Below are positions 40,001 through 62,920 of a stretch of DNA of 64,000 nt, piece by piece (the stretch's first letter is position 1; each line of letters starts with the position of its first letter). The stretch comes from Planotetraspora sp. A-T 1434. GTDB lineage: Bacteria; Actinomycetota; Actinomycetes; Streptosporangiales; Streptosporangiaceae. Location of the stretch: NCBI RefSeq assembly GCF_025420585.1, contig NZ_JAOEGB010000013.1:62001-126000 (forward strand), in the 5' to 3' direction. Below the pieces are notes generated by a model. It searched no databases, was not told the DNA's origin, and saw nothing but the letters and a program-made list of their open reading frames with translations. The position numbers and the translations under genes were made by a program.

Positions 40001-42495
40001 GGATGGCGCATGGCCGGAACCACGACGGCCTCCTGGCTGTGCGCGGCCACCAGGGCGCTCAGCGTACGGCCCGGCCCGACCTCGACGAGCGCCCGGTCGC
40101 CGTCGGTCGTCAGCAGCCGCAGCGAGTCAGAGAAGCGGACGCAGCCACGCAGGTGGCGCACCCAGTAGTCCGGATCGGTGGCCTCGGCGTCGCCGACCCA
40201 CGTGCCGGTCAGGTTCGACACGTACGGGATCGCGGGAGGGGACAGCTTCACCTCGGCGACCCGCTCACGGAAGCGGTCGAGGATCGGATCCATCATGCGG
40301 GAGTGGAAGGCGTGGGAGGTGTGGAGGGGCCGCGCGACGACTCCCTCCACGGCGAGGGCCTCCGTCACGTCGGCGACGGCCTCATGGGTGCCGGAGATCA
40401 CGCACACGCCTGGGGCGTTGACCGCGGCGACGTCGACCTCGTCGCCCAGCATCGGCCAGAGCAGCTCCTCGGGCAGGGTGACGGCGGCCATCGCGCCCTC
40501 GCCGAGCGACTGCATCAGCGCGCCGCGCTCGGCGACCAGGCGGAGCGCGTCGTCGGGGTCGAAGACCCCGGCCAGGGCCGCGGCGACGTACTCCCCGATG
40601 CTGTGCCCCGCCATCGCGGTCGGCTCCAGGCCGTAGGACCGCAGCAGCCGGGCCAGGGCGTACTCGACGGAGAACAGCGCGGGCTGGGTGTTGGCGGTCC
40701 GGCTGAGCCGCCGCGCCGCGTCCTCGCCGGAGTCGAAGAGCAGGCCGTGCAGGTCCAGGCCGTGGGAGTCGCGCAGGGTCGCCGCGCAGTCGTCGATCAC
40801 CTGGCGGAACACCGGCTCGGCGTCGTACAGGTCCCGCGCCATTCCCGGATGCTGCGCCCCCTGCCCCGGGAACAGGAACGTCACGGTCCGGTCGCCGCTC
40901 ACCGCCTGCGCCCCCGAGCCGACGACCCGGGCCGCCTCCTCGTGGTCGGCGGCCACGGCGAAGCGCCGGACCCGCAGCGCCGCCCGGCCGCGGGACAGCG
41001 TGGAGGCGACGTCGGCCAGCTCTTCCGGCTGCTCAAGCTGCTGGGCCAGATGGGTGCCGAGCTGCTCGGCCGCCTCGTCGAGCGCCTGCTCGGTCCGCGC
41101 CGACAAGGTCAGGAGCTGGTACGGCCGGCGGCCCGGCCTGGTGGGGGCCGGCGCCGAGGCCTGCTCCAGAACCACGTGGGCGTTGGTGCCGCCGATGCCG
41201 AAGGAGCTGACGGACGCGAGGCGGCTCCCCGAGCCCGGATCCCAGCTCATCAGGGTCGCCGGCACGTGGAACGGGCTGCTGTCGAAGTCGATGCGAGGGT
41301 TGGGCTCGTCGAAGTTGATGGCCGGCGGCAGCAGGCCCTCCTTCAGGCAGTAGACCGCCTTGATGAACCCGGCCACTCCGGCGGCGGCGCCCAGGTGACC
41401 CACATTGGACTTCACCGAGGAGATGGCGCAGCGCGGGGCGTGTTCCGGACGCGGGCCGAACGCCTCGGCCAGCGCGCCGACCTCGATGGGGTCGCCCACG
41501 GCGGTGCCGGTGCCGTGCGCCTCCACGTAGCCGATGCGCGCCGGGTCGACCCCGGCGTCCCGCAGCGCCGCGCCGACCACCGCGACCTGGCCGTTCTTGC
41601 TCGGCGCGGCGAAGGCGAGCTTGTCGCCGCCGTCGTTGTTCACGGCCGAGCCCCGGATGACCGCGTGGATCGTGTCACGGTCGGCGAGCGCGTCGGCCAG
41701 CCGCTTGAGCACGATCGCCCCGGCTCCGCTGCCGAACACCGTGCCGCGGGCTTTGGCGTCGAAGGTCCGCACGTGCCCGTCGGGCGAGAAGATGCCGCCC
41801 TCGGAGTAGGTGTAGCCGGCGATCATGGGGAGGGCCAGCTCGACCCCGCCGGCGAGGGCGGCGTCGCACTCCCCCGCGCGCAGCGCGCGGACCGCGGTGT
41901 GAATGGCGACCAGCGAGGTGGAGCACGCGGTGACCATGCTGACCGCCGGACCGGTCAGGCCCAGGCGGTAGGCCACGCCCGTGGACAGGTAGTCCGTGTG
42001 GTTGTTGATGATCGCCATCAGGACGCCCGTCGCCCGCCACACCGCGGCGTTCCGCGTGACGTTGTCCTCCAGGTAGGCGTTGTGCCGGGAGCCCGCGTAC
42101 ACCCCCACGCGGCCGTCGAACCGCCGCGGGTCGAGGCCCGCGTGCTGCAGCGCCGTACCGCACGTCTCCAGGAAGAGCCGGAACTGGGGGTCGAGGATCT
42201 GCGCCTCGCGCGCGCTGACGCCGAAGAACTCGGCGTCGAACCGGTCGAAATCCTCGATGACCGGCGCGGCCCGCACGTAGTTGGGATCCCGGAGGTCCTT
42301 CTCGGGGACGCCGCCGGCGCGCAGCGCGTCCTCGTCGAAGAACGCGATCGACTCCACGCCGTCCAGGAGGTTCCCCCAGAACTCGTCGGCGTTCCGCGCG
42401 CCCGGGAAACGCCCCGCCAGGCCCACGACGGCGACGGGCTCGGGCGTCTGGGATGGGCGGACGAGACCGCGCGATAGGTCAGCCATGCCGGTCAT
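37084..42495 (-). CDS. Type I PKS, KS-AT-KR-DH-ACP (malonyl)
   Basis: 1803 residues. KS: TACSTS (Cys about 193), EAHGTGT, SNVGHLGAAAG. AT: GHSIGEY (Ser about 631) with SHAFHSRMM, predicting malonyl-CoA. KR (about 1126): GGLGGLG and GDYAGAN. DH: DEHRLAGVPTMPG (His about 1376) and HPSVLDA. ACP: GGNSL (Ser about 1741). KR precedes DH, unlike the usual modular order. All catalytic residues are present, so the product would be an alpha,beta-unsaturated thioester. The C-terminal AALSDEEAIEALKVLEGE resembles the tail of the NRPS at 28540-35100 and probably docks to its partner. ATG 42495 chosen; ATG 42486 or TTG 42522 are possible. Confidence 0.92.
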   Translation of the reverse strand: MTGMADLSRGLVRPSQTPEPVAVVGLAGRFPGARNADEFWGNLLDGVESIAFFDEDALRAGGVPEKDLRDPNYVRAAPVIEDFDRFDAEFFGVSAREAQILDPQFRLFLETCGTALQHAGLDPRRFDGRVGVYAGSRHNAYLEDNVTRNAAVWRATGVLMAIINNHTDYLSTGVAYRLGLTGPAVSMVTACSTSLVAIHTAVRALRAGECDAALAGGVELALPMIAGYTYSEGGIFSPDGHVRTFDAKARGTVFGSGAGAIVLKRLADALADRDTIHAVIRGSAVNNDGGDKLAFAAPSKNGQVAVVGAALRDAGVDPARIGYVEAHGTGTAVGDPIEVGALAEAFGPRPEHAPRCAISSVKSNVGHLGAAAGVAGFIKAVYCLKEGLLPPAINFDEPNPRIDFDSSPFHVPATLMSWDPGSGSRLASVSSFGIGGTNAHVVLEQASAPAPTRPGRRPYQLLTLSARTEQALDEAAEQLGTHLAQQLEQPEELADVASTLSRGRAALRVRRFAVAADHEEAARVVGSGAQAVSGDRTVTFLFPGQGAQHPGMARDLYDAEPVFRQVIDDCAATLRDSHGLDLHGLLFDSGEDAARRLSRTANTQPALFSVEYALARLLRSYGLEPTAMAGHSIGEYVAAALAGVFDPDDALRLVAERGALMQSLGEGAMAAVTLPEELLWPMLGDEVDVAAVNAPGVCVISGTHEAVADVTEALAVEGVVARPLHTSHAFHSRMMDPILDRFRERVAEVKLSPPAIPYVSNLTGTWVGDAEATDPDYWVRHLRGCVRFSDSLRLLTTDGDRALVEVGPGRTLSALVAAHSQEAVVVPAMRHPQQDRDDVRVALEAVGQVWAAGAPVDWDAFWSAEERRTVPLPTYPYQRRRYWIDPDEEVTATPADTGPFTVPVWRETPPPSAGSADPDVPWLVFAPEADPATAEFARLARAAGADVLVAGALDDQAEVFGRLAARAPERVRVVHALAAAPRPDHVSEADHAARWLDLGFHSALTALQTAARLLPGTAVDLVVVTRDMQDVTGDGAVEPAKAAVLGLVKLAPKEFDAVTCRSVDFGAAPPSTAAAQLLAEVTGNAAEEQVAYRGRKRWVWSYAGVELSGPDGVPYLLRERGVYLVTGGLGGLGLLVARQLASLVSARLVLVGRTGLPPREEWPSILDGADDRDRVAARIRGVLDVEAAGGEVLAVSGDVTDESSMNAVKRAARERFGPVDGVFHLAAVAGGGMLETRSRDDAARVLAPKVLGAYVVERVFEPELLVLYSSIAAVSGDFGLGDYAGANAVLDAFAQSRWARGRHTVSVNWPPFAEAGMAFEIDAPSILGSLRKDEGEPGAAAPVAHPLLRDRRELADGSIRFELEFTPGVWVLDEHRLAGVPTMPGTGIVELVRAAFAEVTGQPRARIGKLLFLAPLMVAEGLVVRLTLTPAGRGYDVTIAGSDGVEYSRGHVEEAPEGTPAVHDLGALRDRCPDDTTPAFQGLIGELRFGPRWHIVSARHSGGPLELIDVRLPAEFAADLADYYLHPSVLDACVAVGQNVAGDGSYLPFGYDTITVHGPLPARVTSVLRHLDDTTGDVTTADISVVDESGRELVTVEGFSLLRVDGRTGVSAAEAAGQTVGQAAVARPPAVDPSVSEDGVRNAEAAETLRLVLASGFGPQLIWCPEGLGERLRRTARVTRAALAERLTADTAGGGGTRSLDTPYVEPGTEPERALAVLWAEALGIDQVGAEDDFFDLGGNSLVAVQLVARITQRFRSDVSVARLFDTRTVRGLATAIEEDLLAKVAALSDEEAIEALKVLEGE

Positions 42496-42529
42496 GTTCA
42501 GCCGCCCGGCTCCGCCGGACAAGGGAAGT

Positions 42530-42543
42530 GGCGAGTAGTCGCC
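42530..42543. promoter_or_regulatory. Candidate cluster operator, inverted repeat
   Basis: GGCGAGTAGTCGCC is a 5-bp inverted repeat with a 4-bp spacer in the 80-bp divergent promoter between the PKS and sbnA-like genes. A 12/14 match, GGCGAGAAGTCGTC, occurs in the other divergent promoter of the cluster (61490-61503). Confidence 0.3.
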
Positions 42544-42575
42544 ATACCCCTTCCGCGCGGGTCCGGCACCGTCCG

Positions 42576-43691
42576 ATGCTGCTGAGCGTGCTACCGGACT
42601 GGGACGCGATAGGCGGCACTCCCGTATCGGAGGTCACCGTCGCCTTCCATGGCCGCGAACACCGCGTCCTCCTCAAACGGGAGTGGGCCAACCCGAGCGG
42701 CTCGGTCAAGGACCGGACCGCGGCGGGGCTACTGCGGGCCATGCACGCGGCGGAGCCGCTGCGGCCGGGCACGACGGTCATCGAGTCGACGTCCGGCAAC
42801 CTCGGCATCGCGCTGGCGCGGTTCCTGAACGCCGCCGAATGCCGGTTCATCGCCGTGATCGACCCCAAGACTCCGGCGGAGAGCCGCCGGCTGCTCCGCG
42901 CGGCGGGAGCCGAGTTGCACCTGGTCGACGAGCCGGACGGGCACGGCGGCTACCTGCTGAGCCGCCTGCGCGTCGTGCGCGACCTGTGCGCCGCGCATCC
43001 CCACTACCGCTGGCCCGATCAGTACGCCAGCCCGTTCAACCCACTCGTCCACCAGCGGACGACCGGCCCCGAGATCGCCGCGCAGGGCGGGCCGGACCTC
43101 GACGCCGTCTACGTCGCCGTGTCGACCGGCGGAACGCTCGCCGGGATCTCGGCGTGCATCCGGCCGCTCGGCCGGCCGATCAGGCTCGTCGCCGTGGACG
43201 CCCAGTCATCGGCGGCGACGTCGTTCTCGGCGTCACCGGCGTCACCGGCGGCGGCGTCATCGGCGACCGCCGGGGCGGCCGGGGCGGCGAGGGCCCTTGC
43301 CGCCGGGGCCGGCTCGCCGTCGGCACGCCTCGTCCCCGGCATCGGCGCCGGCCGCCCGTCGTCCTTCCTCGGGCCCGCGTCGTACGACCGGGCGGTCGCC
43401 GTCCCGGACCCGGCCGCGCTGGCCATGTGCCGCATGTTCCTGGAGGACACCGGCGTCGCCCTGGGAGGCTCGAGCGGATCCGTGCTGACCGCGTGCGTCG
43501 AGGAGCTGGGCGGGCCGGACCCGCCGCGGCTCGCCCTCTGCCTCGCCGCCGACCACGGCGCGAAGTACGCCACCACCGTCTACGACGACGGCTGGCTCAT
43601 CGCGAGCGGGGTGTACGGCGCGGTCAAGCACGCCTTCGACCGCTACAGAATCGACGGCCTGCGTTTCGTCCTGGAGAGCGGACCCTTCTGA
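42576..43691 (+). CDS. sbnA: SbnA-like 2,3-diaminopropionate pathway PLP synthase
   Basis: 371 residues, cysteine-synthase fold. IGGTPV, ANPSGSVKDR (PLP Lys45), ESTSGNLGIALA, HGGYLLSRL and LVPGIGAGR match SbnA, which joins O-phosphoserine and glutamate to N-(2-amino-2-carboxyethyl)-glutamate. HGGYL and ESTSGNLGIALA separate it from ordinary CysK. An Ala/Ser-rich low-complexity insertion (about residues 212-245) interrupts the region before PGIGA. ATG 42576 chosen by comparison with SbnA; no clear Shine-Dalgarno. It is divergent from the PKS operon and 68 bp before sbnB. Confidence 0.9.
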   Translation: MLLSVLPDWDAIGGTPVSEVTVAFHGREHRVLLKREWANPSGSVKDRTAAGLLRAMHAAEPLRPGTTVIESTSGNLGIALARFLNAAECRFIAVIDPKTPAESRRLLRAAGAELHLVDEPDGHGGYLLSRLRVVRDLCAAHPHYRWPDQYASPFNPLVHQRTTGPEIAAQGGPDLDAVYVAVSTGGTLAGISACIRPLGRPIRLVAVDAQSSAATSFSASPASPAAASSATAGAAGAARALAAGAGSPSARLVPGIGAGRPSSFLGPASYDRAVAVPDPAALAMCRMFLEDTGVALGGSSGSVLTACVEELGGPDPPRLALCLAADHGAKYATTVYDDGWLIASGVYGAVKHAFDRYRIDGLRFVLESGPF

Positions 43692-43758
43692 AGCCGACCC
43701 GTCTGAGAGCGGACCCTTCTGAGAGCCGACATCCTGAGAGCTGATTCCGGAGAGCTGA
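43690..43758. repeat. Degenerate direct repeats between sbnA- and sbnB-like genes
   Basis: Four to five copies of a unit like CTGAGAGCNGA (with CGGACCCTTCTGA spacers) fill the 68-bp intergenic gap, the first overlapping the last codons of the sbnA-like gene. The last copy provides the GGAGAG ribosome-binding site of the next gene. Confidence 0.75.
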
Positions 43759-43759
43759 C

Positions 43760-44836
43760 ATGTCGCTGCCCATGCCCGGCCACGATGGCACCGAGATCCT
43801 GTTCCTGAACCGCCAAGAGGTGGAGGAGGCCTGCCGCGGCATGGACCTTCCCGCCGTGGTCGGCCGGGCCCTGGTCCGCCACACGCGCGGGGAGACCGCA
43901 CTGCCCGAGGAGGCCTACCTCCCCTGGACGGCCCCCGACGGCGCCGCGGCCCGCTGCCTGGCCATGCCGGGCGCGCTGCGGAACGACGGGGACGGCTGGA
44001 CCTACGGCATCAAGATCATTAACGGCTGCCTGTCCAACCCCTCGCGGGGGCTGGCGCGGGCCCAGGGCGTGATCATGCTGTTCGATCCGCAGACGGCCCG
44101 GCCGGTGGCGCTGCTGGAGGCCGCCTACATCAGCGCCATGCGGACGGCGGCCGTGACCGCCGTCACGGCCGCCCGGCTCGGGGTGCCCCGGCTCGCTCGG
44201 ATGGCCGTCCTCGGCTGTGGGACGCTCGCGCGCGCCCACCTCAGGCTGCTGCCGGCCGTGCTGCCCGATCTCCGGCAGATCAGCCTGTTCGACCTCGATC
44301 CGTCCGCGTGCCGGCGGCTGGGCGACGACCTCCGCGCCGGCCATCCGGACCTGAAGGTGGTCGAGGCCGAGGGGCCGCGCGAGTGCGTGGCCGGCGCCCA
44401 GCTCGTCGTCCCGGTCACCACCACCACGTCCGGGTACATCGCCTTCGACTGGCTCGCACCCGGAGCGCTGATCGCCCACGTCTCCCTCGACGACCTGCTG
44501 CCCGAGGTGGTGCAGCGGGCGGATCTCGTCCTGGTCGACGACTGGGGCCTGGTCGCCGCGGACTCACGGCGCCTGCTGGGCCGCATGTATCGCTCGGGAG
44601 ACCTCCTCGCCCCCGATGGCGCCCGCTTCCACGACGCCCCCGCGAAGGCGGGGGTCCGGAGGGTGGACGGCCATCTCGGAGACGTGCTCGCCGGGGTCCA
44701 CCCCGGCCGCCGTTCGGCGGAGGACATCGTGGTGAGCAACCCCTTCGGAATGGCCCTCCTCGATGTCGCGGTGGCCCACGAGGTGGTTGCGGCCGCGGCC
44801 GGGAGCGCCGCCCTCGGCCGCCCGCTCACCCTCTGA
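43760..44836 (+). CDS. sbnB: SbnB-like dehydrogenase (ornithine cyclodeaminase family) for 2,3-diaminopropionate
   Basis: 358 residues. YGIKIINGCLSNPSRGLARA, VALLEAAYISAMRTAAVTAV and the NAD-binding MAVLGCGTLARAHLRLLP define the ornithine cyclodeaminase/mu-crystallin family; pairing with an SbnA homologue identifies SbnB, which oxidatively cleaves the SbnA product to L-2,3-diaminopropionate, 2-oxoglutarate and NADH. ATG 43760 with GGAGAG. It is convergent with the ABC permease gene across 21 bp, where GGACC...GGTCC could form a weak shared terminator. Confidence 0.92.
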   Translation: MSLPMPGHDGTEILFLNRQEVEEACRGMDLPAVVGRALVRHTRGETALPEEAYLPWTAPDGAAARCLAMPGALRNDGDGWTYGIKIINGCLSNPSRGLARAQGVIMLFDPQTARPVALLEAAYISAMRTAAVTAVTAARLGVPRLARMAVLGCGTLARAHLRLLPAVLPDLRQISLFDLDPSACRRLGDDLRAGHPDLKVVEAEGPRECVAGAQLVVPVTTTTSGYIAFDWLAPGALIAHVSLDDLLPEVVQRADLVLVDDWGLVAADSRRLLGRMYRSGDLLAPDGARFHDAPAKAGVRRVDGHLGDVLAGVHPGRRSAEDIVVSNPFGMALLDVAVAHEVVAAAAGSAALGRPLTL

Positions 44837-44857: not shown

Positions 44858-45661
44858 CTATCCGAAAAGGTCCAGCGTGCCGTCCGCCCGGGAGCGCGCC
44901 ATGACGTCGCGGGTCAGCAGCAGCGCGAGGACGAACCAGCCGGCCGCCACCGCGAGCTCCAGGGCGGCCGCCGGGAGCACGGCGGCCAGGGACGCGCCGT
45001 CCAGCACGTCCCGGATCGCCGACAGCCCGTGCGTCAGCGGCAGGAAGCCGACGGCGTGCTCCAGCCACCCGGGCCAGAACGAGATCGGCACGTTCACCCC
45101 GCACAGCATCGCCAGGACCAGGTAGCCGAGGTTGAGCAGCACCCACATCACGGAAGGGGCGCGCAGGGCGACCGTCGCCAGGACGCAGCCGTAGGCGTAG
45201 CAGGACAGGGCGGTCAGCACGAGCAGCGGCAGCACGAGCGGCAGGCGGGACAGGTCGAGGGGGACGCCCACGACCAGCGGCACGGCCACCAGCGCCACCG
45301 TCGAGGTGAACGTGCCGGTGCACACCCATTGCAGGCCGCGCGCCATATAGACGTTGGCCGGTCCTGTCGGGGAGGCCACCAGCAGGACGAGGGTGCCCTG
45401 GGCGCGCTCCATGACCGTGGAGAGGACGACGAACATCGCCTCGAACCCGACGAGCAGGACCGCGTTGCCGATGACCATGTACCGCGCCGTGTCGCCGCCC
45501 CCGACGGAGCGCCCGACGAGGCCGAAGAAGATGACCTGGCACAGCACCCGCAGCAGCCAGCCCGTCAGCCACTCGCCGGGCGTGAACAGCGCGCGCAGCT
45601 CCGCGAAGCCGAGCGCTACGGCGTACCCGGCGATCCGGGCGCGCGCGGCGATCGTCGTCAT
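44858..45661 (-). CDS. ABC-2 type permease (subunit 2)
   Basis: 267 residues with six predicted membrane segments. MVIGNAVLLVGFEAMFVVLSTVMERAQGTL and PLTHGLSAIRDVLDG are typical of DrrB-like ABC-2 permeases used in drug export. Start ATG 45661 forms an ATGA overlap with the stop of the first permease. Together with the ATPase at 46422 it probably exports the cluster's product and may give self-resistance. Confidence 0.88.
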   Translation of the reverse strand: MTTIAARARIAGYAVALGFAELRALFTPGEWLTGWLLRVLCQVIFFGLVGRSVGGGDTARYMVIGNAVLLVGFEAMFVVLSTVMERAQGTLVLLVASPTGPANVYMARGLQWVCTGTFTSTVALVAVPLVVGVPLDLSRLPLVLPLLVLTALSCYAYGCVLATVALRAPSVMWVLLNLGYLVLAMLCGVNVPISFWPGWLEHAVGFLPLTHGLSAIRDVLDGASLAAVLPAAALELAVAAGWFVLALLLTRDVMARSRADGTLDLFG

Positions 45662-46425
45662 GCGTGTCCCACCGTCCCGTCCCGCCTGATCCGCCGGACG
45701 ACCAGGTTCGTCAGCAGGTGCCCGGCCATGTAGGCCGCGAGACCGAGCGTGAGAAGGGCCCCCAGCCTGTACGGCAGCGCCGCCACGGGGGCCGCGCCGG
45801 CGGCGTCCCGCAGCAGCTGCGAGCTCCAGCTCAGGAACACGACGTCGCTCACCGGCCGCAGCCACTCCGGCAGCAGCTCGACCGGGAACAGAACCGCTCC
45901 GAGGATGTAGAAGGGATAGGTCAGGACGACCTCGAACAGCACGGTGTTCCGGCTGAGCACGAAGAGCGGGGCGAGCAGGCAGGCCGTACCGGCGATCGCG
46001 ACCAGGGTCGCCAGCAGGGTGACCGCGAAGATCACCGGGTGGTGGATCTCGATCGAGGCGCCGAAGACCACGGTCGCGACCAGGTAGGACTCGGCGAACG
46101 CGAGCGTGCCGATGGCGACGACCGCCGACAGCCGGCCGAGGACGATCGACGACAACGAGGCCGGCGCGGCGAGCAGCAGCTCCAGAGTTCCCTGCCATCG
46201 GTCGGTGGAGATGAGGTCGCCGGTCTGGTTGACGGTGAGCACCCACAGCCCGATCAGCCCGGCGCCCGTGATGGCGGTGACCAGGAAGTCCTCCCGGCCC
46301 GCGGCCCGTCCGACGGAGGCGAAGACGACCGACAGGAGCGGCGTCGTCATCAGTGCGATGGCGTCGATCGGCCGGCTGGCGACCATGGCCAGGTGCATCC
46401 GGGTGGCGGCGAGGACGGCCGTCAT
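45658..46425 (-). CDS. ABC-2 type permease (subunit 1)
   Basis: 255 residues with about six membrane helices. GLWVLTVNQTGDLISTDRWQGTLELLLAAP and ILGAVLFPVELLPEWLRPVSD are ABC-2 membrane-protein signatures. ATG 46425 overlaps the ATPase stop by 4 bp. It pairs with the second permease as a heterodimer. Confidence 0.88.
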   Translation of the reverse strand: MTAVLAATRMHLAMVASRPIDAIALMTTPLLSVVFASVGRAAGREDFLVTAITGAGLIGLWVLTVNQTGDLISTDRWQGTLELLLAAPASLSSIVLGRLSAVVAIGTLAFAESYLVATVVFGASIEIHHPVIFAVTLLATLVAIAGTACLLAPLFVLSRNTVLFEVVLTYPFYILGAVLFPVELLPEWLRPVSDVVFLSWSSQLLRDAAGAAPVAALPYRLGALLTLGLAAYMAGHLLTNLVVRRIRRDGTVGHA

Positions 46426-47405
46426 ACCTTCAGCCCCCGGTCGCCGATGAAGTGCAGGTAGACCTGCTCGAGGGTCGGCTTCTGGGTCGAGATGTCGGTG
46501 ATCCCGTGCTGCACGAGCCGTCCCAGGACCAGGCGCAGCCCCTCGTTCGTCGCGTGCACCCGCCAGGTCGTTCCGCCGTCCACGGCCTCGCCCGGCTCGA
46601 TCGCGATCACGCCGGGCAGGTCGGCGAGCTCGGCGCTCACCCGGCCCGCGAGGGCCGCGTCAGGCGCGCCGAACTCCACCCGGTCGTGGTCGGCCACCAG
46701 CCGGCCGATCCGCTGGGGGTCCTCGGTGAACAGCGCCCGCCCGTGGTCGATCAGCGTGACCTGGTCGCACAGCTGCTCGGCCTCGACCATGTCATGCGTG
46801 GTCAGCAGGATGGTCTTGCGCTCCGCCCGCAGCTCCCCCACCAGAGCGCGCACCTCGCGCGCGGCGACGGGGTCCATACCGACGGTGGGCTCGTCCAGCA
46901 CGATCACCGAGGGGTCGCCGATGAGCCCCCGCGCCAGGTGCAGACGCTGCTTCATGCCGCGGGAGAAGGTTTCCACCCGCTCGCCGGCCCTCTCGGCCAG
47001 CCCGACCCGCTCCAGCAGGGCGTCGGCACGCCTGCGGGCCCCGGCTGTGTCCAGCCCGGCGACGGCGCCCCAGAAGCGGAGGTTCTGCCGGGGGGTGAGC
47101 CTGCCGTACAGGCCCCGGTCGCCGCCGAAGACGATGCCTATCTCGCGGCGCACCCGTGCGGCGTCGCGGACGACGTCGAACCCGGCGACGGCGGCGCGGC
47201 CCGACGTGGGCAGCAGCACGGTGCACAGGATCTTGACGAGCGTGGTCTTGCCTGCGCCGTTCGGGCCCAGCAGGCCGTGCGTCCGCCCCACGTCGACCCG
47301 AAGCGAGAAGTCGTCAAGGGCCACGACCTCCGATCCGCCGCCGGCGCGCCGGAAGAGCGTGCGCCTCGGCGTGTACACCCGGCCGAGGTCACTGATCTCG
47401 ATCAC
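46422..47405 (-). CDS. ABC transporter ATP-binding protein (DrrA-like exporter)
   Basis: 327 residues. Walker A GPNGAGKTT, Q-loop region GIVFGGDRGLYGRLT, signature FSRGMKQRLHLARGL, Walker B VIVLDEPTVGMDP, H-loop LLTTHDM. The C-terminal domain of about 90 residues (DRVEFGAPDAALAGRV... to QVYLHFIGD) resembles DrrA-type tails. GTG 47405 overlaps the stop of the LanB-like gene (GTGA), placing export in the same translationally coupled unit. Confidence 0.93.
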   Translation of the reverse strand: MIEISDLGRVYTPRRTLFRRAGGGSEVVALDDFSLRVDVGRTHGLLGPNGAGKTTLVKILCTVLLPTSGRAAVAGFDVVRDAARVRREIGIVFGGDRGLYGRLTPRQNLRFWGAVAGLDTAGARRRADALLERVGLAERAGERVETFSRGMKQRLHLARGLIGDPSVIVLDEPTVGMDPVAAREVRALVGELRAERKTILLTTHDMVEAEQLCDQVTLIDHGRALFTEDPQRIGRLVADHDRVEFGAPDAALAGRVSAELADLPGVIAIEPGEAVDGGTTWRVHATNEGLRLVLGRLVQHGITDISTQKPTLEQVYLHFIGDRGLKV

Positions 47406-49696
47406 ACCGGGGCCTCCTGTCCGTTGTGGGGAACGATGCGGGCGGACGGCCTCGTGTCCACCGCGACCATGCGGATCTCCGTCGTGTATCGCCGTCCGTC
47501 CGCGTCGGCCAGCCAGAGGTCGCCATGACCGGGCAGCATCTCGCGCAGCTCGACGTGCCCGCCGTCGGGGAGCCGCCGCCAGCTCCGCGCCAGGTTGGTG
47601 ACCAGCGATGGCGAGCGCAGGTCGACGTAGAACGGTTTGGGATCGAGCGGACTGGTGGCGAAGAGGTGGCGTGGCAGCCCCGCCCCGGCGAGCCGGTCGG
47701 CCAGCACCTCCCAGCGGTAGCCGCCCCGCGTCAGCAGCCCCGTGGGGAACTCACCGGCGGTGAACCGCCAGCCGCGCCGCCGCACCACGAGGTCGTCCAC
47801 TACCAGGCGGGGCTCGTACGGATCGTCGGTCCGGATCCGGAACGTGTTGACCACGAGGGCGCTGAGGAACTCGCCGAAGAACTCCAGCACCGGCAGCCGC
47901 CAGGACCCGTCACGCGGCCCGGCCAGCAGACCGCCGCCGCCGTCCTCCGTCACGACCAGGCCGGTGGCGGGCAGGGACGCGGCCCCGGCGGGAGCCCCGG
48001 TGTCGTCGCCGAAGGACCAGTAGAGGTAGCGGCCGGGGACGTGGACGGCCAGCGGCGGGTAACGCCGCGAGTCCACCGCGGGTCCGTTGGGGTAGCACGG
48101 CACGACCCGCCCGCCCGCCATGTCGGCCGCGGTCGCCGCGGCCAGCTCCCCCCGGTCGTCGCTCAGGGTGTGGAAGAACCGGCTCTCCAGCGTGTTCATC
48201 GCCACGTGCAGCTCACCGAGCACCCAGGTCAGCCCGGACGCCGTGCGGGCGAGCAGCAGGTCCGGGCTGTGGTGCCGGGCGGCGGCCCAGGGCGGCGCCG
48301 TGCCGGGATCGGGGAACATCGCCGCCACGTGGTCCGCGATGGCCGCCGCGTCCAGTCGTATCTCCTCGGGCTCGGCCCCCGGCGCCTTCCCGGCCCCGGT
48401 CGCGAGCTCGATGATCTCGGCCCAGCGCAGCCGGAAGTCGTGCGCCACCTCGTTCACGGGGCTGGCCGGACCACCCGCCAGCGGCTCCGCGGCGGCGAAG
48501 TGGAGGTCGGCCAGAGTGACCTCGTCGCTGCGGGCGCGCAGCCGGCCGTACACGCCGGCCAGCGACTCCTGGACCGCCTCGGCCGCCTGCGCGGTGAGCC
48601 ACCGCGCGGAGCGCAGCAGCAGCCCGAGTGGCGGGGCGAGCCGGTCGATCAGCGGGGCGCCGATCGTGACGTCCAGGTCGCGGCGGCAGTCCGGATACAC
48701 CAGAGTCCGCCCCGCGCCGACGTCCTTCCCCCGGCGCGGGGCACGCCGGGTCCGCCGGGTGAACGCCTCCTCCAGCCCGCGGAGGGCCTCGGCGAGCGGC
48801 ACGGGGTCGGTCATGGCCTTGGCGGCCGCCCGCCGGGCCTCGTCCAGCTCATCCAGGCAGCCGAGCAGCTCCTCCCGCAGCGATGGCTCGGGGATCCGGG
48901 CGACCTGGTCGCGCAGCGCGTCCTCCGGCCGCTCCCCCACGGGCACCGTGAAGCCGATCCGCACGACCCCCGCGTCCCGCAGCGCCAGCAGCGTCGCCTC
49001 CGGCTCGATGAGCCCCGCCGTACGGCCCGACGCCACCTGGCCGAGGACGGCGAGCGCGGCGTCGTCGAGCTCGACGGGCGGGCGGAACGGCCGGCGGGCG
49101 AGGCGGCCCTCGACCGACACCGCGGGATGGCGGCGGACGGGCAGGTGGGGCCGCACCCGCTCGTCGGACTCGAAGGCGCGGGCTAGCAGCTCCACCGCCC
49201 AGTGCTCGAAGAAGACCTCGCCGTGCCGGATGCCGCCTCCGCCCAGCACGACCGGCTCCACCTGATCGTCGCCGGTCAGCTTGGCCCAGCCCACCGGCCC
49301 GAAGAAGCCGATGCTGTCGTTCTTGGCGCAGTATCGCTGGGCGTAGCGCGCGAGCAGGCCGGCCCGGAGGGTGGTGACCTTCTTCACGTCCGGCCCCGTG
49401 CCGCCCGAGGCGATCAGAGGGGCCATCCAGGCGGCCACCACGCCCGGGTTCTGCCAGGTGAGCGCCGAGGCGAACAGGGGATCGCCGAGCAGCCCGGCGG
49501 GGCCGTCGTGGCCGGGCGCGGTCAGCCGGTCCAGCCAGCCGGCCGGAAGCCCGGCGCCGCGGACGGCGGCCACCCGCCAGAGGGCCCAGTCGTCGAGCAG
49601 CTCGATCAGGTGGCCGTTCACCGTGCCCCCCGTCACCGATCTTTCCGTCACCGGGCCCTCTGTCACCGGGCGCTCTGTCGCCGGGACTTCTGTCAC
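47402..49696 (-). CDS. LanB-type lantibiotic dehydratase N-domain protein (tRNA-dependent glutamylation/PEARL-like)
   Basis: 764 residues. YCAKNDSIGFFGPVGW (about 122-137) is the signature of the LanB N-terminal domain; GRTLVYPDCRRDLDVTIGAPL, ARTASGLTWVLGELHVAMNTLE, RYLYWSFGDD, PRLVVDDLVVRRRGWRF, PRHLFATSPLDPKPFYVDL and a terminal GDLWLADADGRRYTTEIRM complete that domain. The protein ends there: no SpaB_C elimination domain is visible. In known systems this domain transfers an amino acid from aminoacyl-tRNA (glutamate onto Ser/Thr in lanthipeptides; other residues in PEARLs). No RiPP precursor is evident nearby. GTG 49696 overlaps the PKS stop; residues 1-27 are VTE/PVTE repeats, so a later GTG may be the real start. 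Its role in a nonribosomal pathway is an open question. Confidence 0.85.
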   Translation of the reverse strand: MTEVPATERPVTEGPVTERSVTGGTVNGHLIELLDDWALWRVAAVRGAGLPAGWLDRLTAPGHDGPAGLLGDPLFASALTWQNPGVVAAWMAPLIASGGTGPDVKKVTTLRAGLLARYAQRYCAKNDSIGFFGPVGWAKLTGDDQVEPVVLGGGGIRHGEVFFEHWAVELLARAFESDERVRPHLPVRRHPAVSVEGRLARRPFRPPVELDDAALAVLGQVASGRTAGLIEPEATLLALRDAGVVRIGFTVPVGERPEDALRDQVARIPEPSLREELLGCLDELDEARRAAAKAMTDPVPLAEALRGLEEAFTRRTRRAPRRGKDVGAGRTLVYPDCRRDLDVTIGAPLIDRLAPPLGLLLRSARWLTAQAAEAVQESLAGVYGRLRARSDEVTLADLHFAAAEPLAGGPASPVNEVAHDFRLRWAEIIELATGAGKAPGAEPEEIRLDAAAIADHVAAMFPDPGTAPPWAAARHHSPDLLLARTASGLTWVLGELHVAMNTLESRFFHTLSDDRGELAAATAADMAGGRVVPCYPNGPAVDSRRYPPLAVHVPGRYLYWSFGDDTGAPAGAASLPATGLVVTEDGGGGLLAGPRDGSWRLPVLEFFGEFLSALVVNTFRIRTDDPYEPRLVVDDLVVRRRGWRFTAGEFPTGLLTRGGYRWEVLADRLAGAGLPRHLFATSPLDPKPFYVDLRSPSLVTNLARSWRRLPDGGHVELREMLPGHGDLWLADADGRRYTTEIRMVAVDTRPSARIVPHNGQEAPV

Positions 49697-52600
49697 CGGG
49701 CCCCCTGCTCCCGCAGGACTCCGGCGAGGCTGTTGATCGTGGGGTAGTCGAACAGCGCCGCGATCGAGAGGTCGACGGCGAACACCGACCGTATCCTCGT
49801 CATCAGCTCGACCGCGCTCAGCGAGTTTCCGCCCAGCTCGAAGAAGTCCGCGTCGAGCGCGATCTCCGGTTCGCCCAGCGCCTCCGCCCAGACCGAGACG
49901 AGCCGCGCCTCGACGGAGCCCGGATCCGCCCCGCCACCCGGCGAGGCCGGGACCCCGGAGACAGACGAGGCCGGGGCCGCGGAGACAGGGGCCGGCGTCG
50001 CGGGCAGGCCGGCCACCGCGGGAGGGGAAGCCGTCGCGAGAGGCGCGGGAGGGGTGGGGACCGCCGGAACAGGGATGGCCGCTTCCCGTGGCGCCTTCCC
50101 CCGACCGGGGCCTGCCGCGGCGCGCCGCACCGGCCGGGCGCCGGGCTCGACCACGACCTGGCCCGGGTGGCGAGCGCGCAGCAGGGTCATGAGGAGTCTC
50201 GCCCCCTCCTCCGGCTCGATGCCGTCCTCCCCGGATGCGGGAGCCTGCGAGGGGCCGGACGTCGTGTCCGGTTCCCGCAGGAAGCTCCGGCCGTCCACCT
50301 TCCGCATGGTGTATCCGACGGCCCTGCCGAGGAGGCGGCCGTCAGGCGCGATCAGGTCGACGTCGGCGCTGATGACGCCGCCCGCGCCGGGCAGGCGCCG
50401 GATGTGGGCGAACAGCTGCGCGGGCAGCGTGTCGTGGACGACCAGCTCGTTGTAGAGGAACGGCAGGTAGAGGCCGTCCTCCGGCCGGCGCACCGATCCG
50501 GTGGCGGAGTCGAGCAGCGTGGGGTGCACCACGTGGGCGGCGACCTCCGCGGCGAGCTCGCCCTCCAGTTCGAGATGGAGCAGCATCTCGCTGGTATCGC
50601 CGCCCGGCAGCGTCCAGGTGTGGGGGTTGTTGTGCCAACGCGGGCCCAGTGAGAACAGGCGTGGGATGTCGTCCTCGTCCTCGTCGAGGTAGTGGGACAG
50701 GCGGCGGCGCAGGGCGTCCAGATCGACCTGCCCGGCCGCCGGGCGGCCGGCGGCCACCGTGCCGCTCGCGTGCTTCACCGGCTCCGCCGACGCGTCGGCG
50801 GCCGGGCGTGACCACGACTCGAATCGGCCGTCGGGATACAGCCGGATCTCCACCCGGCGGGCCTCCCGCGCCGCCATGACCTGGTGGAAGAGGATGTCCT
50901 TGAGCCGGACGGGGCCGTCGTGCCCGCTGATCGAGCGATGCGCCCGCAACACCATGTCGATGTGGCCGGTTCCCGGCAGCACCGCGACTCCGTCGACGCG
51001 GTGCTCGTCGAGCAGCGGGCAGTTCTCCACGGACAGCTCCGCCGACCAGGTCCGCACGCCGTGCTCGGCCGCCATTCCGACCCGTGCCCACGACGGCCAG
51101 TTGATCGACAGTGCGGCCACGCCCGAACGGCGCAGCACCTGGGCGCAGGCGTCCTGGAACGCGTTGGCCGCCGCGTAGTCGGCGCTGCCCACCAGGCCGT
51201 CGGTCGCGGCGCGGCTGGAGAAGCAGACGAAGAAGTCGAGCGCCGGCCGGTCGGCGAACGCCTCCGTCAGGTGCAGCGTGCCATGGGCCTTCGGAGCCAG
51301 GACGGCCCTGGCGTCCTCCTGTCCGCGGAGCTGGGCGAGGCCGTCGCCGGCGATCCCGGCCAGGTGCAGCACGCCGTTGACCGGGCCGTATCGCGCCGTG
51401 ACGGAGTCGAGAACGCGGCGCAGCGCCCGCCGGTCGGTGACGTCGCAGGAGATCGCGCGCACCTCGGCGCCCAGCGACTCCAGCTCGCTCACCTGGGCGC
51501 GCAGCCGCGCGGCCCGGTCGCCGTCGCCCTCGGGGATTCCTGTACGGCCGAGCAGCACCAGCCGGAGCCGGAGGCCGGTGCCGGCGAGCTCCCGGGCGAC
51601 GGCCAGGCCGAGGCCGCCCAGCCCGCCGGTGATCAGGTAGACGCCGCTCCTGCGGATCGGAGAGGGAACGGCGACGCCGGCCGTGAACGGCACCTCGGCC
51701 CGCACCCACCGGCGCGGGCCGCGCAGCGCCACCACGTCGTGCCGTTCCCACAGGGCGATCTCGGCGGCCAGCTCGTGCTCGTCCGTGCCGGGGCCGACGT
51801 CGACGAGGCGGCATCCGAGCTGGGACGCCTCCTTGACCAGCGACCGCACGAAGCCATGCAGAGCGGCGTGGACCGGGTCGATCGGTTCGGCGCCGGTGAC
51901 GTCCAGGGAGCGGGAGACGAGCACGAGCAGCCCCGGCGGCCGGCCCGCACCCCGCGTGCCCGCCTGAACCAGCGCGAGAAGGCTCATGAACACCTCGTTC
52001 AGCCGGGCGTCCGCGGTCGCGGCGGTCACCGGCTCGCCCTCCGCGACGGCGACCGCGTGGACGAGCAGCCGGGGGGCGGCTCCCCGGGCGGCCAGGGCCG
52101 ACAGAACCCGGGCCAAGTCGTCGCGGCTGTCCGGGCGCACCCGGAACTCCCCGGCCACCTCGGCGTAGGCGGTCCCTGGCCGGACGATCACCGGGCGCAG
52201 ACCGGCCTGCTGCAGCGCGAGCACGTATCGGAGACTCTCGCCCGGGTCCGCCGGGAGCAGCGCCAGGCAGGTGCCCTCGACCGGGACGAACGGTTCCCGG
52301 TCGTGCGACTCCACCCAGGACAGCGTGGAGAACGGAGTCTCCTCGGTATCCGCAGTCTCGGTATCCGGAGTCTCCCCAGCTTCCCCGGTCTCCCTGCCCT
52401 CCCATACCCGCGCGGGCGCCGGATCGGCGACGCCCGTCAGGCTGTCGGCCGGAGCGGGGCTCGGCACGGTCGCCGAAGCCGTTTCCGTCTCGCCGGGCCG
52501 CTGGTAGGAGGCGTCCACCCAGTGGCGGCGGCGCTGATAGACCTGCCCGGGCAGCGGCACCCGGCGCAGCGGCTCACCCTGCCGCACCTCGGCCCACAGC

Positions 52601-55341
52601 ACGTCATGGCCTTCGGCCCAGATCCGCGCCACGGCCGTGAGCGTCTGGCGCGCGTCCGCGGCCGGGTCACCCGCCTCACGTGGCAGGAGCGGTACGGCGG
52701 CGCTGGCGCCGTCCTTCACGGCGGGGTGGCGGCGGGCGAGAGTGGTGAGGATCTGGCCGGGCCCGGTCTCGACGAGGAGCCGCCGCCCGTCGCCGAACAG
52801 CGCGTCGAGCGCCCGGTCGAACCGCACCGGAGCCGCGACCTGGTCGGCCCAGAACGACGGGTCGGTCGCCTCCTCGTCCGTGACACGGCGGCCGGCCGCG
52901 GCGGAGTAGAGCGGGAGGCGGGGAGGCGACAGCCGCACCTCGTCGAATGCCTCCGCGAAGAGCGCCGCCGCGCCCGCCATGAGGGGGGTGTGAAAGGCGC
53001 CGGAGGTGGCCAGCCCGGTGCAGGCGATCTTCCGCTCGGTCAGCAGGGGGACGGCGGCGTCGACGTCTTCCGGCGTCCCGGCGAGCACCGTCTGGCGGGG
53101 GCCGTTGACCACCGCGACGGTCAGGCCCGAGGGAACGGCGGCACTCACCTCCTCGGCAGGCGCGGCCACGGCGATCATGGCGCCGGGCGGCGCGAGCGCC
53201 ATGGCCCGTGCGCGCGCCGTCACGAGGGCCACCGCGTCCTCCAGGGTGAAGACCTCGGCGACGGCCGCCGCGGCGAGCTCGCCGACGCTGTGCCCGACGA
53301 GCGCCGAGGGGTGGACGCCCTTGGCCATCAGCGACCGCGCCAGCGCGTACTCGACGGCGAAGAGCAGCGGCTGGGCCAGGGTTGCCTCCGCCAGCTGAGC
53401 CGCGTCCGCCTCACGCCACGGGTCCGCGAGCTCCAGGCCGTGCCCGGCGAAGAGCCCCAGCACGTCGTCGAAGGCGCGGGTGAACGCGTCGTCCGAGCCG
53501 TGCAGGCCGAGGGCCATGGCCACCTGCTGCGCGCCCTGCCCGGGGAAGGCGAACACGACGTCGCGGCGCTCGGCCGCCCCCTCCACGACCCCAGAAACGA
53601 GCCGAGAAACGACCCGAGAAACGACCCCGGAACCGGCCCCGGAAGCGGCGCCTGAACCGGCCCCCGAGGCGACGCCCGGCCCGACCTCCGAAACGGCCCG
53701 TGAACCGGCCCCTGAACCGGCCCCGAAACCGGCCCCGGAACCGGTCAGAGCGCTCACGGCCTCGGCGGCCGAGCCCGCGACGATCGCCCGCCGGATCGGG
53801 TAGGCGCGGCGCCCCTCCTGGAGGGTGGACACGACCGCCGGGAAGTTCTCCTCGTCCTTCTCCCGCAGGTGGGCCGCGAGCCTGTCGCGGTAGGCCAGCT
53901 CGGCCGCCTCCGCCTTGGCCGACCACACGACGATCCTGGGCCGCTCCTCTTGTTGCGCCGGGGCGGCCGACGGCCCCTCGGCCAGCACGACGTGGCAGTT
54001 CGTTCCGCCCACCCCGAAGGAGCTGACCCCGGCGAACCGCGGCCGGTCCGGCTTCCTGGGCCAGGGGACCAGACGATCGGCCACGTAGAACGGGGTCTCC
54101 TGGATCCGCAGCTTGGGGTTGGGCTCGGTGAAGTTGGCCGTCGCCGGGATCTCCCCGTGCCTCAGCGCGTACGCCGCCTTGATCAGCGACGCGATGCCGG
54201 CCGCGTGGCCGAGGTGGCCGACGTTGCCCTTGACCGAACTGAGCGCGCACGATCCGGGAGCGAGATCCGCGCCGCCCGCCAGGCTGCCCGACACCGCGCG
54301 GAACGCCCGGTCCAGCGCCGCCACCTCGATCGGATCGCCGAGCGGGGTGCCCGTCGCGTGCGCCTCGACGTAGGAGACGTCGGCGGGAGAGACGCCGGCC
54401 ATGCCCAGCGCCTGGGCCACCGCCGCCGCCTGGCCGTTCAGCGACGGGGCGCTGAACCCGGCCTTGTCGGAGCCGTCGTTGTTCACCGCGCTGCCGCGGA
54501 TGACGGCGAGGATCGTGTCCCCGTCCGCGAGCGCGTCGTCCAGCCGCTTGAGCACCACCGCGCCGCAGCCGGTGCCGAACAGCGTGCCGTTGGCCTTGAC
54601 GTCGAAGGGGCGCACGTGCCCGTCCCGGGAGACCGGCCCTCCCTCCTCCCACAGGTATCCGTGAGCCACGGGGAACTCCACGTCCACCCCGCCGGCCAGG
54701 GCGACGTCGCACTCGCCGTTGCGCAGAGCCTGGGCCGCCAGGTGGACGGCGACCAGCGAGCTGGAGCAGGCGGTCGACAGCGTGATCGCCGGGCCCCGCA
54801 GGGAGAACTTGTAGGCGACCGTGCTCGCCACGTAGTCGATGTTGTTCAGTGAGCTGAGCATGAAGCTGCTCGTGGCCGACACGTCCCCCATGTACCGCAG
54901 GTGGAGGTCGATGTACCGGTTGGTGCCCGAGGTGGCGTAGACGCCGACGTCGCCGTCGATCGCGTAGGGGTTGAATCCGGCGTTCTCCAGCGCGGAGTGC
55001 GCGACCTCCAGGAACATCCGGATCTGCGGGTCGCTGTGGGCGGCCTCCCGCGGGGTGTAGCCGAAGAAGGCCGCGTCGAAGTTCTCCACGTCGGGCGCCG
55101 AGGCGACGGCCTTGACGTAGCCCGTCTGGTTCAGCAGGTCTCGCGGCACCCCGGCCGCCCACAGCTCGTCGTCCGTGGGAAACGCGATGGACTCCACGCC
55201 GTCACGCAGATTGGCCCAGTACTGCTCGGCGTCGCCCGCGCCCGGAAACCGCCCCGCGACACCGATGATCGCGACATGATGTTCCGAGCCGTGCTGAGTG
55301 CCGTGACCATCGCTGTGTTCAGTGCCGTGTTCAGTGCTCAT
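49693..55341 (-). CDS. Type I PKS, KS-AT-KR-DH-ACP (malonyl)
   Basis: 1882 residues. The His-rich start (EHGTEHSDGHGTQHG) may form an N-terminal docking tag. KS: TACSSS (Cys about 192), EAHATGT, GNVGHLGHAAG. AT: GHSVGEL (Ser about 683) with SGAFHTPLM, predicting malonyl-CoA. KR (about 1237): GGLGGLG and ADYAAAN. DH: DEHRVDGVAVLPG (His about 1445), HPTLLDS. ACP: GGNSL (about 1837). Again KR precedes DH. A Gly/Ala/Ser/Val repeat (DNA 53588-53745) sits in the KS-AT linker, and a Pro/Ala-rich linker precedes the ACP. ATG 55341 has GAGGAC, 10 bp after the upstream NRPS stop. Confidence 0.92.
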   Translation of the reverse strand: MSTEHGTEHSDGHGTQHGSEHHVAIIGVAGRFPGAGDAEQYWANLRDGVESIAFPTDDELWAAGVPRDLLNQTGYVKAVASAPDVENFDAAFFGYTPREAAHSDPQIRMFLEVAHSALENAGFNPYAIDGDVGVYATSGTNRYIDLHLRYMGDVSATSSFMLSSLNNIDYVASTVAYKFSLRGPAITLSTACSSSLVAVHLAAQALRNGECDVALAGGVDVEFPVAHGYLWEEGGPVSRDGHVRPFDVKANGTLFGTGCGAVVLKRLDDALADGDTILAVIRGSAVNNDGSDKAGFSAPSLNGQAAAVAQALGMAGVSPADVSYVEAHATGTPLGDPIEVAALDRAFRAVSGSLAGGADLAPGSCALSSVKGNVGHLGHAAGIASLIKAAYALRHGEIPATANFTEPNPKLRIQETPFYVADRLVPWPRKPDRPRFAGVSSFGVGGTNCHVVLAEGPSAAPAQQEERPRIVVWSAKAEAAELAYRDRLAAHLREKDEENFPAVVSTLQEGRRAYPIRRAIVAGSAAEAVSALTGSGAGFGAGSGAGSRAVSEVGPGVASGAGSGAASGAGSGVVSRVVSRLVSGVVEGAAERRDVVFAFPGQGAQQVAMALGLHGSDDAFTRAFDDVLGLFAGHGLELADPWREADAAQLAEATLAQPLLFAVEYALARSLMAKGVHPSALVGHSVGELAAAAVAEVFTLEDAVALVTARARAMALAPPGAMIAVAAPAEEVSAAVPSGLTVAVVNGPRQTVLAGTPEDVDAAVPLLTERKIACTGLATSGAFHTPLMAGAAALFAEAFDEVRLSPPRLPLYSAAAGRRVTDEEATDPSFWADQVAAPVRFDRALDALFGDGRRLLVETGPGQILTTLARRHPAVKDGASAAVPLLPREAGDPAADARQTLTAVARIWAEGHDVLWAEVRQGEPLRRVPLPGQVYQRRRHWVDASYQRPGETETASATVPSPAPADSLTGVADPAPARVWEGRETGEAGETPDTETADTEETPFSTLSWVESHDREPFVPVEGTCLALLPADPGESLRYVLALQQAGLRPVIVRPGTAYAEVAGEFRVRPDSRDDLARVLSALAARGAAPRLLVHAVAVAEGEPVTAATADARLNEVFMSLLALVQAGTRGAGRPPGLLVLVSRSLDVTGAEPIDPVHAALHGFVRSLVKEASQLGCRLVDVGPGTDEHELAAEIALWERHDVVALRGPRRWVRAEVPFTAGVAVPSPIRRSGVYLITGGLGGLGLAVARELAGTGLRLRLVLLGRTGIPEGDGDRAARLRAQVSELESLGAEVRAISCDVTDRRALRRVLDSVTARYGPVNGVLHLAGIAGDGLAQLRGQEDARAVLAPKAHGTLHLTEAFADRPALDFFVCFSSRAATDGLVGSADYAAANAFQDACAQVLRRSGVAALSINWPSWARVGMAAEHGVRTWSAELSVENCPLLDEHRVDGVAVLPGTGHIDMVLRAHRSISGHDGPVRLKDILFHQVMAAREARRVEIRLYPDGRFESWSRPAADASAEPVKHASGTVAAGRPAAGQVDLDALRRRLSHYLDEDEDDIPRLFSLGPRWHNNPHTWTLPGGDTSEMLLHLELEGELAAEVAAHVVHPTLLDSATGSVRRPEDGLYLPFLYNELVVHDTLPAQLFAHIRRLPGAGGVISADVDLIAPDGRLLGRAVGYTMRKVDGRSFLREPDTTSGPSQAPASGEDGIEPEEGARLLMTLLRARHPGQVVVEPGARPVRRAAAGPGRGKAPREAAIPVPAVPTPPAPLATASPPAVAGLPATPAPVSAAPASSVSGVPASPGGGADPGSVEARLVSVWAEALGEPEIALDADFFELGGNSLSAVELMTRIRSVFAVDLSIAALFDYPTINSLAGVLREQGAR
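53588..53745. repeat. 12-bp degenerate tandem repeat in the KS-AT linker of the PKS
   Basis: Units of the type GAAACGACCCCG / GAACCGGCCCCG, encoding SGAG/SRVV repeats. Located between KS and AT. Confidence 0.85.
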
Positions 55342-62770: not shown

Positions 62771-62920
62771 GCGACTCCAACCGCTGCGCCTGACGCTAGC
62801 CGCGGGCCTCTACACGTCTACGTGGTGATCGCGCATCGGCTGCCGCATAGATTGCGCATAAACCCCCGAGTAAGAAACATGAGCGCCACTCGGACCACTG
62901 GAACAATTGCCACTAAAGGG

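Follow-up and report, generated by a model that had tools for sequence, protein, structure and literature searches.

The closest described counterpart of the protein considered here is SnaE from the threopeptin pathway of Stackebrandtia nassauensis, which is annotated as a lantibiotic dehydratase and attaches threonine to a ureido dipeptide at its carboxylate. The dipeptide is made by SnaA, a nonribosomal peptide synthetase (NRPS) with adenylation (A), thiolation (T) and condensation (C) domains in the order A-T-C-A-T and with the motif EHHxxHDG in its C domain, and about two thousand NRPS or polyketide synthase (PKS) clusters reportedly encode SnaE-like proteins, in some cases with a thiolation or thioesterase domain attached, and have no precursor peptides (PMC11212132). 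Among ribosomally synthesized and post-translationally modified peptides (RiPPs), the peptide aminoacyl-tRNA ligases (PEARLs) BhaBCTrp and TglB possess a glutamylation-type fold without an elimination domain and extend a carrier peptide (PMC11962472, PMC12945691). P0001 resembles these enzymes in fold and domain content. It is a 764-residue LanB-glutamylation-domain protein encoded at 47402-49696 on the reverse strand of a 64,000-nucleotide stretch of the Planotetraspora sp. A-T 1434 genome (contig NZ_JAOEGB010000013.1, positions 62,001 to 126,000; hereafter the window), within an NRPS-PKS cluster. Judged by its sequence, P0001 is best read as a PEARL-like amide ligase dependent on ATP and aminoacyl-tRNA rather than as a Ser-glutamylating dehydratase, and its assignment to this class is highly likely, whichever carboxylate it extends.

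P0001 and SnaE are alike in being stand-alone LanB-type proteins that lack an elimination domain and are encoded beside an A-T-C-A-T NRPS, a PKS and transporters with no precursor peptide; the likeness is one of description and gene context. Amide formation dependent on ATP and aminoacyl-tRNA has been proposed for SnaE on a nonribosomal chain, and the same is proposed for P0001. The two systems differ in where the carboxylate would come from. In the threopeptin pathway it is freed by the ureido-forming C domain, whereas none of the five C domains of the window (SMHHIVSDG, AAHHLVLDG, CVHHIAADG, AVHHIACDG and ECHAILDG) carries EHHxxHDG, and the chain-reversal (ureido) route of SnaE was rejected for this cluster on that ground; the window instead encodes a Lys2-like A domain with a specificity code beginning D-P-R. 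The PKS also differs, being KS-AT-T in the sna cluster and KS-AT-KR-DH-ACP in the window. The proposal is that P0001 extends the α-carboxylate of residue 2, which would be left free because the second A domain (A2) of the NRPS loads this residue through its side chain, and as a whole it falls just short of an even chance of being correct. The enzyme type and its task would then be those of SnaE, with a different carboxylate source that appears so far undescribed.

The reading frame of P0001 starts with GTG and contains YCAKNDSIGFFGPVGW. The true start may be any of several GTG codons that lie in frame from 49696 to 49573, and the N-terminal ~25 residues are repetitive and modelled at pLDDT < 50. 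Lant_dehydr_N (PF04738) is the sole Pfam family matched at E<=1 (E=1.1e-11; 44.1 bits, cut-off 28), and no NCBIfam family matched. Because homologs occur at 52 loci from public genomes and in 66 of 345 genomes of the order (E<=1e-15), P0001 is not a chance open reading frame. The gene lies in a coupled operon that runs from a carbamoyltransferase through a 4-bp overlap to the A-T-C-A-T NRPS, then after a 10-bp gap to PKS 1, the LanB gene, an ABC transporter ATPase and a permease, with further 4-bp overlaps between PKS 1 and LanB (49693-49696), LanB and ATPase (47402-47405) and ATPase and permease (46422-46425). Thus the 764-residue frame with its LanB signature and the overlaps with the PKS and the exporter ATPase, all given in a preliminary description of this DNA, were confirmed, and the comparison with Lant_dehydr_N that it had proposed gave a match. 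The same genome encodes a second LanB homolog with 34% identity (L002/L112, G000:C51:10473-12515), whose surroundings hold one C domain and no A domain within 20 kb.

An AlphaFold2 model of P0001, built from 30 family members (pLDDT 83.6, pTM 0.86), has the LanB glutamylation-type fold, in agreement with the earlier assignment. The 11 PDB chains that Foldseek returned at E<=0.001 are without exception LanB-type enzymes (MibB, TbtB, NisB, MadB, GodF), and a second structural aligner gave Z scores of 19.1 for TbtB over 614 residues, 18.1 for NisB, 17.9 for MadB, 17.5 for MibB and 15.1 for GodF, with the match to NisB confined to its N-domain (5-706). The next matches were ATP-grasp ligases such as glutathione synthetase at Z ~6.5, which the tool notes may reflect a mere common arrangement. 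Searched as a sequence profile against solved structures, P0001 again has TbtB as its best relative (E=1.5e-16); the region in which LanBs bind their peptide gives a weaker match to a PqqD/winged-helix structure (E ~0.003). A Pfam scan of P0001 found no elimination domain (PF14028), as the preliminary description had stated; moreover, the whole 7.8-Mb, 98%-complete genome yielded no PF14028 match at E<=10, while the domain was detected in 208 of the 345 genomes of the order (E<=1e-15).

The residues of P0001 distinguish it from the dehydratases whose fold it shares. In BhaBCTrp, ATP and Mg are bound by D558, E575, E813 and R815, the adenine by R715 and F755, and the 3'-CCA end of the tRNA by R208 and Y205 (PMC11962472). 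The family invariants K125, D479, E495, R640, F679, E740 and R742 of P0001 are separated by gaps of 354, 16, 145, 39, 61 and 2, nearly equal to the gaps of 350, 17, 140, 40, 58 and 2 between R208, D558, E575, R715, F755, E813 and R815 of BhaBCTrp as given there, so that the ATP- and CCA-binding residues correspond by residue identity and spacing. The contact residue Arg208 is replaced by Lys in P0001 (K125), as it is in split LanBs. Conservation was assessed in an alignment of 38 family rows (the window and every third row of the longer members), with 20 fused LanBs as controls, their frames fixed by the PF14028 match, and with 6 split, TbtB-like LanBs encoded beside a separate elimination protein; these 6 come from ten split-LanB frames, of which the four whose open frames exceed 1000 aa were not used. 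At R742 every one of the 38 family rows has Arg, as do none of the 20 fused or 6 split LanBs, and H497 and D479 show the same distribution (38/38, 0/20 and 0/6 for each). E495 is Glu in 36 family rows and Asp in the other two, and is non-acidic in all 26 controls. Both CCA-contact positions are kept, Y122 in 36 of 38 rows and K125 in 37 of 38, the latter also as Lys in 6 of 6 split LanBs. P0001 therefore shares with NisB, MibB and TbtB the fold (Z 17.5-19.1), the positions of the YxxR helix and E740, but it differs from dehydratases of this type in having no elimination partner and in possessing D479, E495, H497 and R742, which are absent from the 26 LanB controls.

The second line of evidence concerns the NRPS (55352-60511, reverse strand, probable GTG start at 60511), whose C domain has the motif SMHHIVSDG and whose two A domains carry the codes DVGEVGTID (A1) and DPRHVGAQV (A2), the code positions of A2 being assigned by motif rules. 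The best NCBIfam model for A2 (55751-57180, approximate limits) is that of Lys2, L-aminoadipate-semialdehyde dehydrogenase (TIGR03443), at 280.5 bits, while the general A-domain model TIGR01733 gives 252.6. A1 of the same NRPS, taken as a control, gives 123.1 bits for Lys2 and 373.5 for the general model, and across ten controls (A1, eight ordinary A domains and L138 with an E-V-R code) the Lys2 score lies 84 to 290 bits below the general one. Among eight other arginine-coded A domains, two score higher on Lys2 (L095 287/275, L124 304/303) and three score 22-28 bits lower (L005 230/252, L055 267/294, L133 256/278). Codes starting with D/E-P-R or D-A-R generally mark A domains that act on the side-chain carboxyl of aminoadipate, Glu or Asp and bind the free α-carboxylate through the Arg. 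From its sequence, A2 is accordingly read as a domain that would activate a dicarboxylic residue at its side-chain carboxyl and leave the α-carboxylate free.

In the open-licence literature, the only cases of side-chain activation found were ACV synthetase, which adenylates the δ-carboxyl of aminoadipate (PMC7147772), and the sulfazecin synthetase, which incorporates γ-Glu and is encoded beside diaminopropionate genes (PMC11298585). Module 1 of ACV synthetase and SulI thus contain side-chain-activating A domains, whereas A2 of the window is Lys2-like by score and has a predicted substrate; the SulI cluster has a further parallel in the window, where SbnA/SbnB-like genes take the place of the diaminopropionate genes reported there. 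Comparison of A2 with the PDB revealed no close solved relative, and the FDPxxR motif occurs in no solved A domain among the matches with printed alignments. Gramicidin synthase, with 281 bits, was only apparently the best of these matches, its score being the sum of two domains (136 + 141 bits).

The D-P-R code and the LanB gene also occur together. In a tree of 109 LanB proteins, drawn from the 52 public loci and 60 further genome regions, the protein of the window falls within a clade (support 87) that comprises 17 proteins encoded at 15 loci. A D-P-R A domain is present in 12 of these 15 loci (the window, L004, L005, L006, L032, L033, L038, L053, L055, L068, L095 and L008, for which it lies on the adjoining region L115); at L003 and L007 the contig stops too early for the A domain to show, and L052, which has a frameshifted LanB and a DPRH code, was left out of the count. 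Outside the clade no D-P-R code was found in the 65 loci, of 88, with a readable A code. The tree label used for this code also took D-A-R and E/D-V-R codes and so marked one locus outside the clade, L097 (DARSLAHIT), whose domain groups with ordinary A domains in the A-domain tree. The D-P-R code of residue 2 is constant across the 12 loci, whereas that of residue 1 takes nine different values, among them codes of Orn-like, Ser-like and Gly-like type. When 28 arginine-coded A domains were arranged in a tree, the window fell in a starred set of eight, seven of them from LanB clusters; 12 LanB-less domains form a starred set of their own, and L006/L038 and L032/L033/L053 make up two further LanB groups. 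The rows behind these counts are related by descent and are not independent trials.

These observations suggest a sequence of steps. The NRPS would load residue 2 (iso-Glu, iso-Asp or of aminoadipate type) by its side-chain carboxyl through the Lys2-like A2, join residue 1 to the amine of the side-chain-loaded residue and pass the side-chain thioester to PKS 1, so that the chain would grow on through the side chain. The α-carboxylate of residue 2 would stay unactivated and beyond the reach of the thioester line. P0001 would then phosphorylate this carboxylate with ATP and link it to an aminoacyl-tRNA through the amine of the latter, after which hydrolysis of the tRNA ester would leave one extra amino acid on the chain.

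A number of findings weigh against this proposal. The correspondence with PEARL residues depends on the mapping by spacing described above, and not all of the mapped positions discriminate. E740 is common to all groups (38/38 family rows, 19/20 fused and 6/6 split LanBs); an acidic residue lies two columns from D479 in 19 of 20 fused LanBs, which makes D479 alone a weak discriminator; and R640, K687 and P688, considered as PEARL marks, were rejected because TbtB and the split LanBs have them too. Three of the nine arginine-coded A domains (L006, L033, L038) fall below the Lys2 listing threshold, and literal D-P-R specificity codes were not found in the open-licence literature, the meaning of the code being taken from general background. 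The support of 87 for the clade is below the 95 mark, and one of its loci, L100, has two LanBs and lacks A, C and KS domains throughout 80 kb. The ureido signature was found in only 4 of the 63 loci outside the clade that have a C domain and, as the 65 readable loci lack D-P-R, the LanB family must use other substrates too. A strong A2-like match was present in 54 of the 345 genomes, with a LanB within 15 kb in only five of the 54 (G000, G002, G140, G215 and G252), and such scaffolds therefore mostly do without LanB. That search showed one match per genome, with four candidates scored in each; in G214 the A2-like domain and LanB are 43 kb apart on the same contig, and the search misses the DPRY type, which adjoins LanB in G291 and G292. 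Of 16 LanB-less loci that were opened, 14 have a D-P-R A domain (D-A-R in L133) followed by a KS, the exceptions being L137 and L138. If D-P-R does mean an exposed α-carboxylate, that carboxylate is usually unchanged or handled otherwise. A DNA pattern for the D-P-R motif was uninformative, with matches in 336 of 345 genomes.

The LanB-less cluster L130 contains a D-P-R A domain of the same set as the window, with no LanB in its genome, which likewise counts against the proposal. Its NRPS has the order A-T-C-A(D-P-R)-T and the same residue-1 code as the window, and just upstream of it lies a stand-alone gene resembling class II aminoacyl-tRNA synthetases (L130:4993-6060, reverse strand, G245; PF00152, E=1.4e-23). 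It is possible that this gene stands in for LanB, an idea that is no more than a lead.

The evidence from fold and PEARL-type residues would serve equally well if P0001 were a PEARL-like enzyme extending a different carboxylate, either the C-terminus of the chain after release by a thioesterase, of which the cluster has two domains, or a side-chain acid elsewhere. Most relatives have neither a D-P-R code nor a ureido signature nearby and many are fused behind C-A-T modules; PEARL-like members of the family must therefore find carboxylates in other ways. This alternative would turn the tight linkage of the clade to D-P-R, despite varying residue-1 codes, into coincidence or shared ancestry, and P0001 is translationally coupled to PKS 1 and not to release genes; it is considered unlikely, if less so than the remaining ones. 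A transfer that needs no ATP, in which a carrier-bound residue would receive the amino acid of an aminoacyl-tRNA on its amine or hydroxyl, or a release of the chain from its thioester by the amine of an aminoacyl-tRNA, seems improbable. LanBs do use aminoacyl-tRNA without ATP (PMC11962472). LanB is fused behind A-T in several relatives, and FemAB-like genes flank it in L055, L008 and L052. The FemAB-like family is itself aminoacyl-tRNA dependent. Against such a transfer, E495, H497 and R742 are the very residues that the family retains and all 26 LanB controls lack, and they match positions that are tied to ATP-dependent phosphorylation in PEARLs (PMC11962472).

The remaining explanations receive very little weight. 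The preliminary description had offered activation of Ser as one of two options, and a glutamylation-domain fold together with a Ser-coded module might indeed suggest that P0001 glutamylates Ser or Thr of the nonribosomal chain, for elimination to a dehydroamino acid; but since the genome holds no PF14028 domain at E<=10 and the positions are of PEARL type rather than LanB type, Ser dehydration by P0001 was rejected and is thought most improbable. The unusual C domain after the Ser module (ECHAILDG) could itself perform dehydration chemistry, a further point against this option. The other option, that an amino acid supplied by tRNA is added, is to be preferred in view of the PEARL-type ATP positions, which the controls lack, and the precedent of SnaE, and the same residues and precedent support the earlier suggestion that the enzyme acts on the NRPS-PKS pathway and not on a RiPP. 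Its suggestion of a mixed ribosome-supply/NRPS chemistry stands as an idea, but it is not new in principle, because it was published in 2024 for SnaE. Equally remote is action on a ribosomal carrier peptide, with an incidental position in the cluster, even though all RiPP-type PEARLs act in this way (PMC11962472, PMC12945691). No candidate for a precursor-peptide gene was found in 35-62.5 kb, the interval to which the search was confined. Only one small frame (25-110 aa) there is mostly free of larger genes (43624-43884), and it has a non-coding G+C pattern; the overlaps leave no space beside the P0001 gene, and most relatives are found in NRPS or PKS loci. Finally, nearly identical scaffolds without LanB exist, which would be expected if the gene were a passenger with no role in the pathway. 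This too has very low probability: the frame is open, the active-site positions are conserved, the gene overlaps its operon neighbours at either end, and L004, L005 and L006 keep the PKS-LanB order at 46-56% identity.

Should the extension of residue 2 by P0001 be correct, it would represent a second, independent route by which a free α-carboxylate is handed to a PEARL-like enzyme, with side-chain loading, a graft supplied by tRNA and a branched product; this broader claim is tentative and is given somewhat less than an even chance. It would explain the role of a LanB-annotated protein in a pathway without a ureido step, and the LanB family could be sorted according to the way in which the carboxylate becomes available (loading through the side chain, ureido reversal or others), with the branch drawn from the translation pool. 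The assembly line would be linked to the pool of aminoacyl-tRNA at a defined atom. In practical terms, a D-P-R A domain beside a LanB of this clade would predict branched peptides, and the presence of LanB would inform A-domain specificity prediction by indicating that the α-carboxylate of the residue is free. The SnaE work leaves open the role of other NRPS-associated LanBs; in the present sample, most of the loci outside the clade that have a C domain are without the ureido signature. SnaE was the sole case in an NRPS pathway found in the open-licence literature on PEARLs or LanBs with NRPSs, subscription papers being outside the scope.

Several other arrangements were observed among the relatives. 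FemAB-like genes flank LanB in three clusters of the clade, L055 (PF04339; 7718-8776, reverse, and 10735-12147, forward) and, as homologs, L008 (5533-7116 and 12148-13206) and L052 (16034-16648), whereas the window showed none. LanB is present as two or three tandem copies in L058, L061, L062, L070, L071 and L086, in the layout A(DAPHLGGFV)-KS, LanB, A-T-C(HHAVFDG)-T, KS, and such copies might act one after another to add several amino acids. A single protein with LanB fused behind A-T is encoded in L014, L016-L018, L020, L021, L024, L048 and L050 (Saccharothrix) and likewise in L011, L025, L029, L030, L036 and L037; these loci have no D-P-R code, and a ureido-type C domain is present only in L025. 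In L057, L063-L065, L067, L069, L077, L079, L082, L089 and L094 the neighbour of LanB is an A-like protein whose pocket is unusual (TGQYVGLP-type), and these loci have no C domain in 20 kb.

Several further genes of the cluster lie on the reverse strand. PKS 1 (49693-55341) and PKS 2 (37084-42522) are both KS-AT-KR-DH-ACP by Pfam. Downstream of LanB lie the DrrA-like ABC transporter ATPase (46422-47405; TIGR01188 at 262.6 bits, below the cut-off of 312) and an ABC-2 permease (45658-46425; PF01061). An NRPS with the order C-A-T-C-A-T (28540-35100) has the codes DAWQFATID and DVDENGNVT, and beside it is a thioesterase gene (35104-36720) in which PF00975 is matched at residues 306-517 only; the ~300 residues ahead of this domain (35104-36010) match no Pfam family. 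The terminal NRPS, C-A(Ser)-T-C-T-TE (22436-28543), has the A-domain code DVWHFSLVD, which the preliminary description had read as serine and which is read in the same way here. In the C domain that follows the Ser module (23900-25000) ECHAILDG replaces HHxxxDG, and the T-TE after it has no A domain. The corresponding C domain of the G002 cluster (L121) reads ECHVILDG, and a domain of this sequence is possibly specialized to act on Ser.

On the forward strand, an SbnA-like (2,3-diaminopropionate) PLP enzyme (42453-43691; TIGR03945 at 256 bits, below the cut-off of 350) is followed by an SbnB-like dehydrogenase (43760-44836; TIGR03944 at 216 bits, below the cut-off of 327). Together with the OTCase-like carbamoyltransferase on the reverse strand (60508-61420, start uncertain, open frame to 61668; PF00185 and PF02729), this pair suggests a supply of diaminopropionate and perhaps also of β-ureidoalanine, either of which the DAWQFATID A domain could accept. 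The same set recurs in G002 (L122), where a nearly complete related cluster (L095, L121, L122) has a LanB of 34-38% identity and another residue-1 code. A SARP/BTAD-type regulator (62447-63880, forward strand; PF03704) lies beyond the carbamoyltransferase, and far from the cluster ARAGORN called a tRNA-Gly (gcc) at 3466-3553 on the reverse strand, where it overlaps a long open frame.

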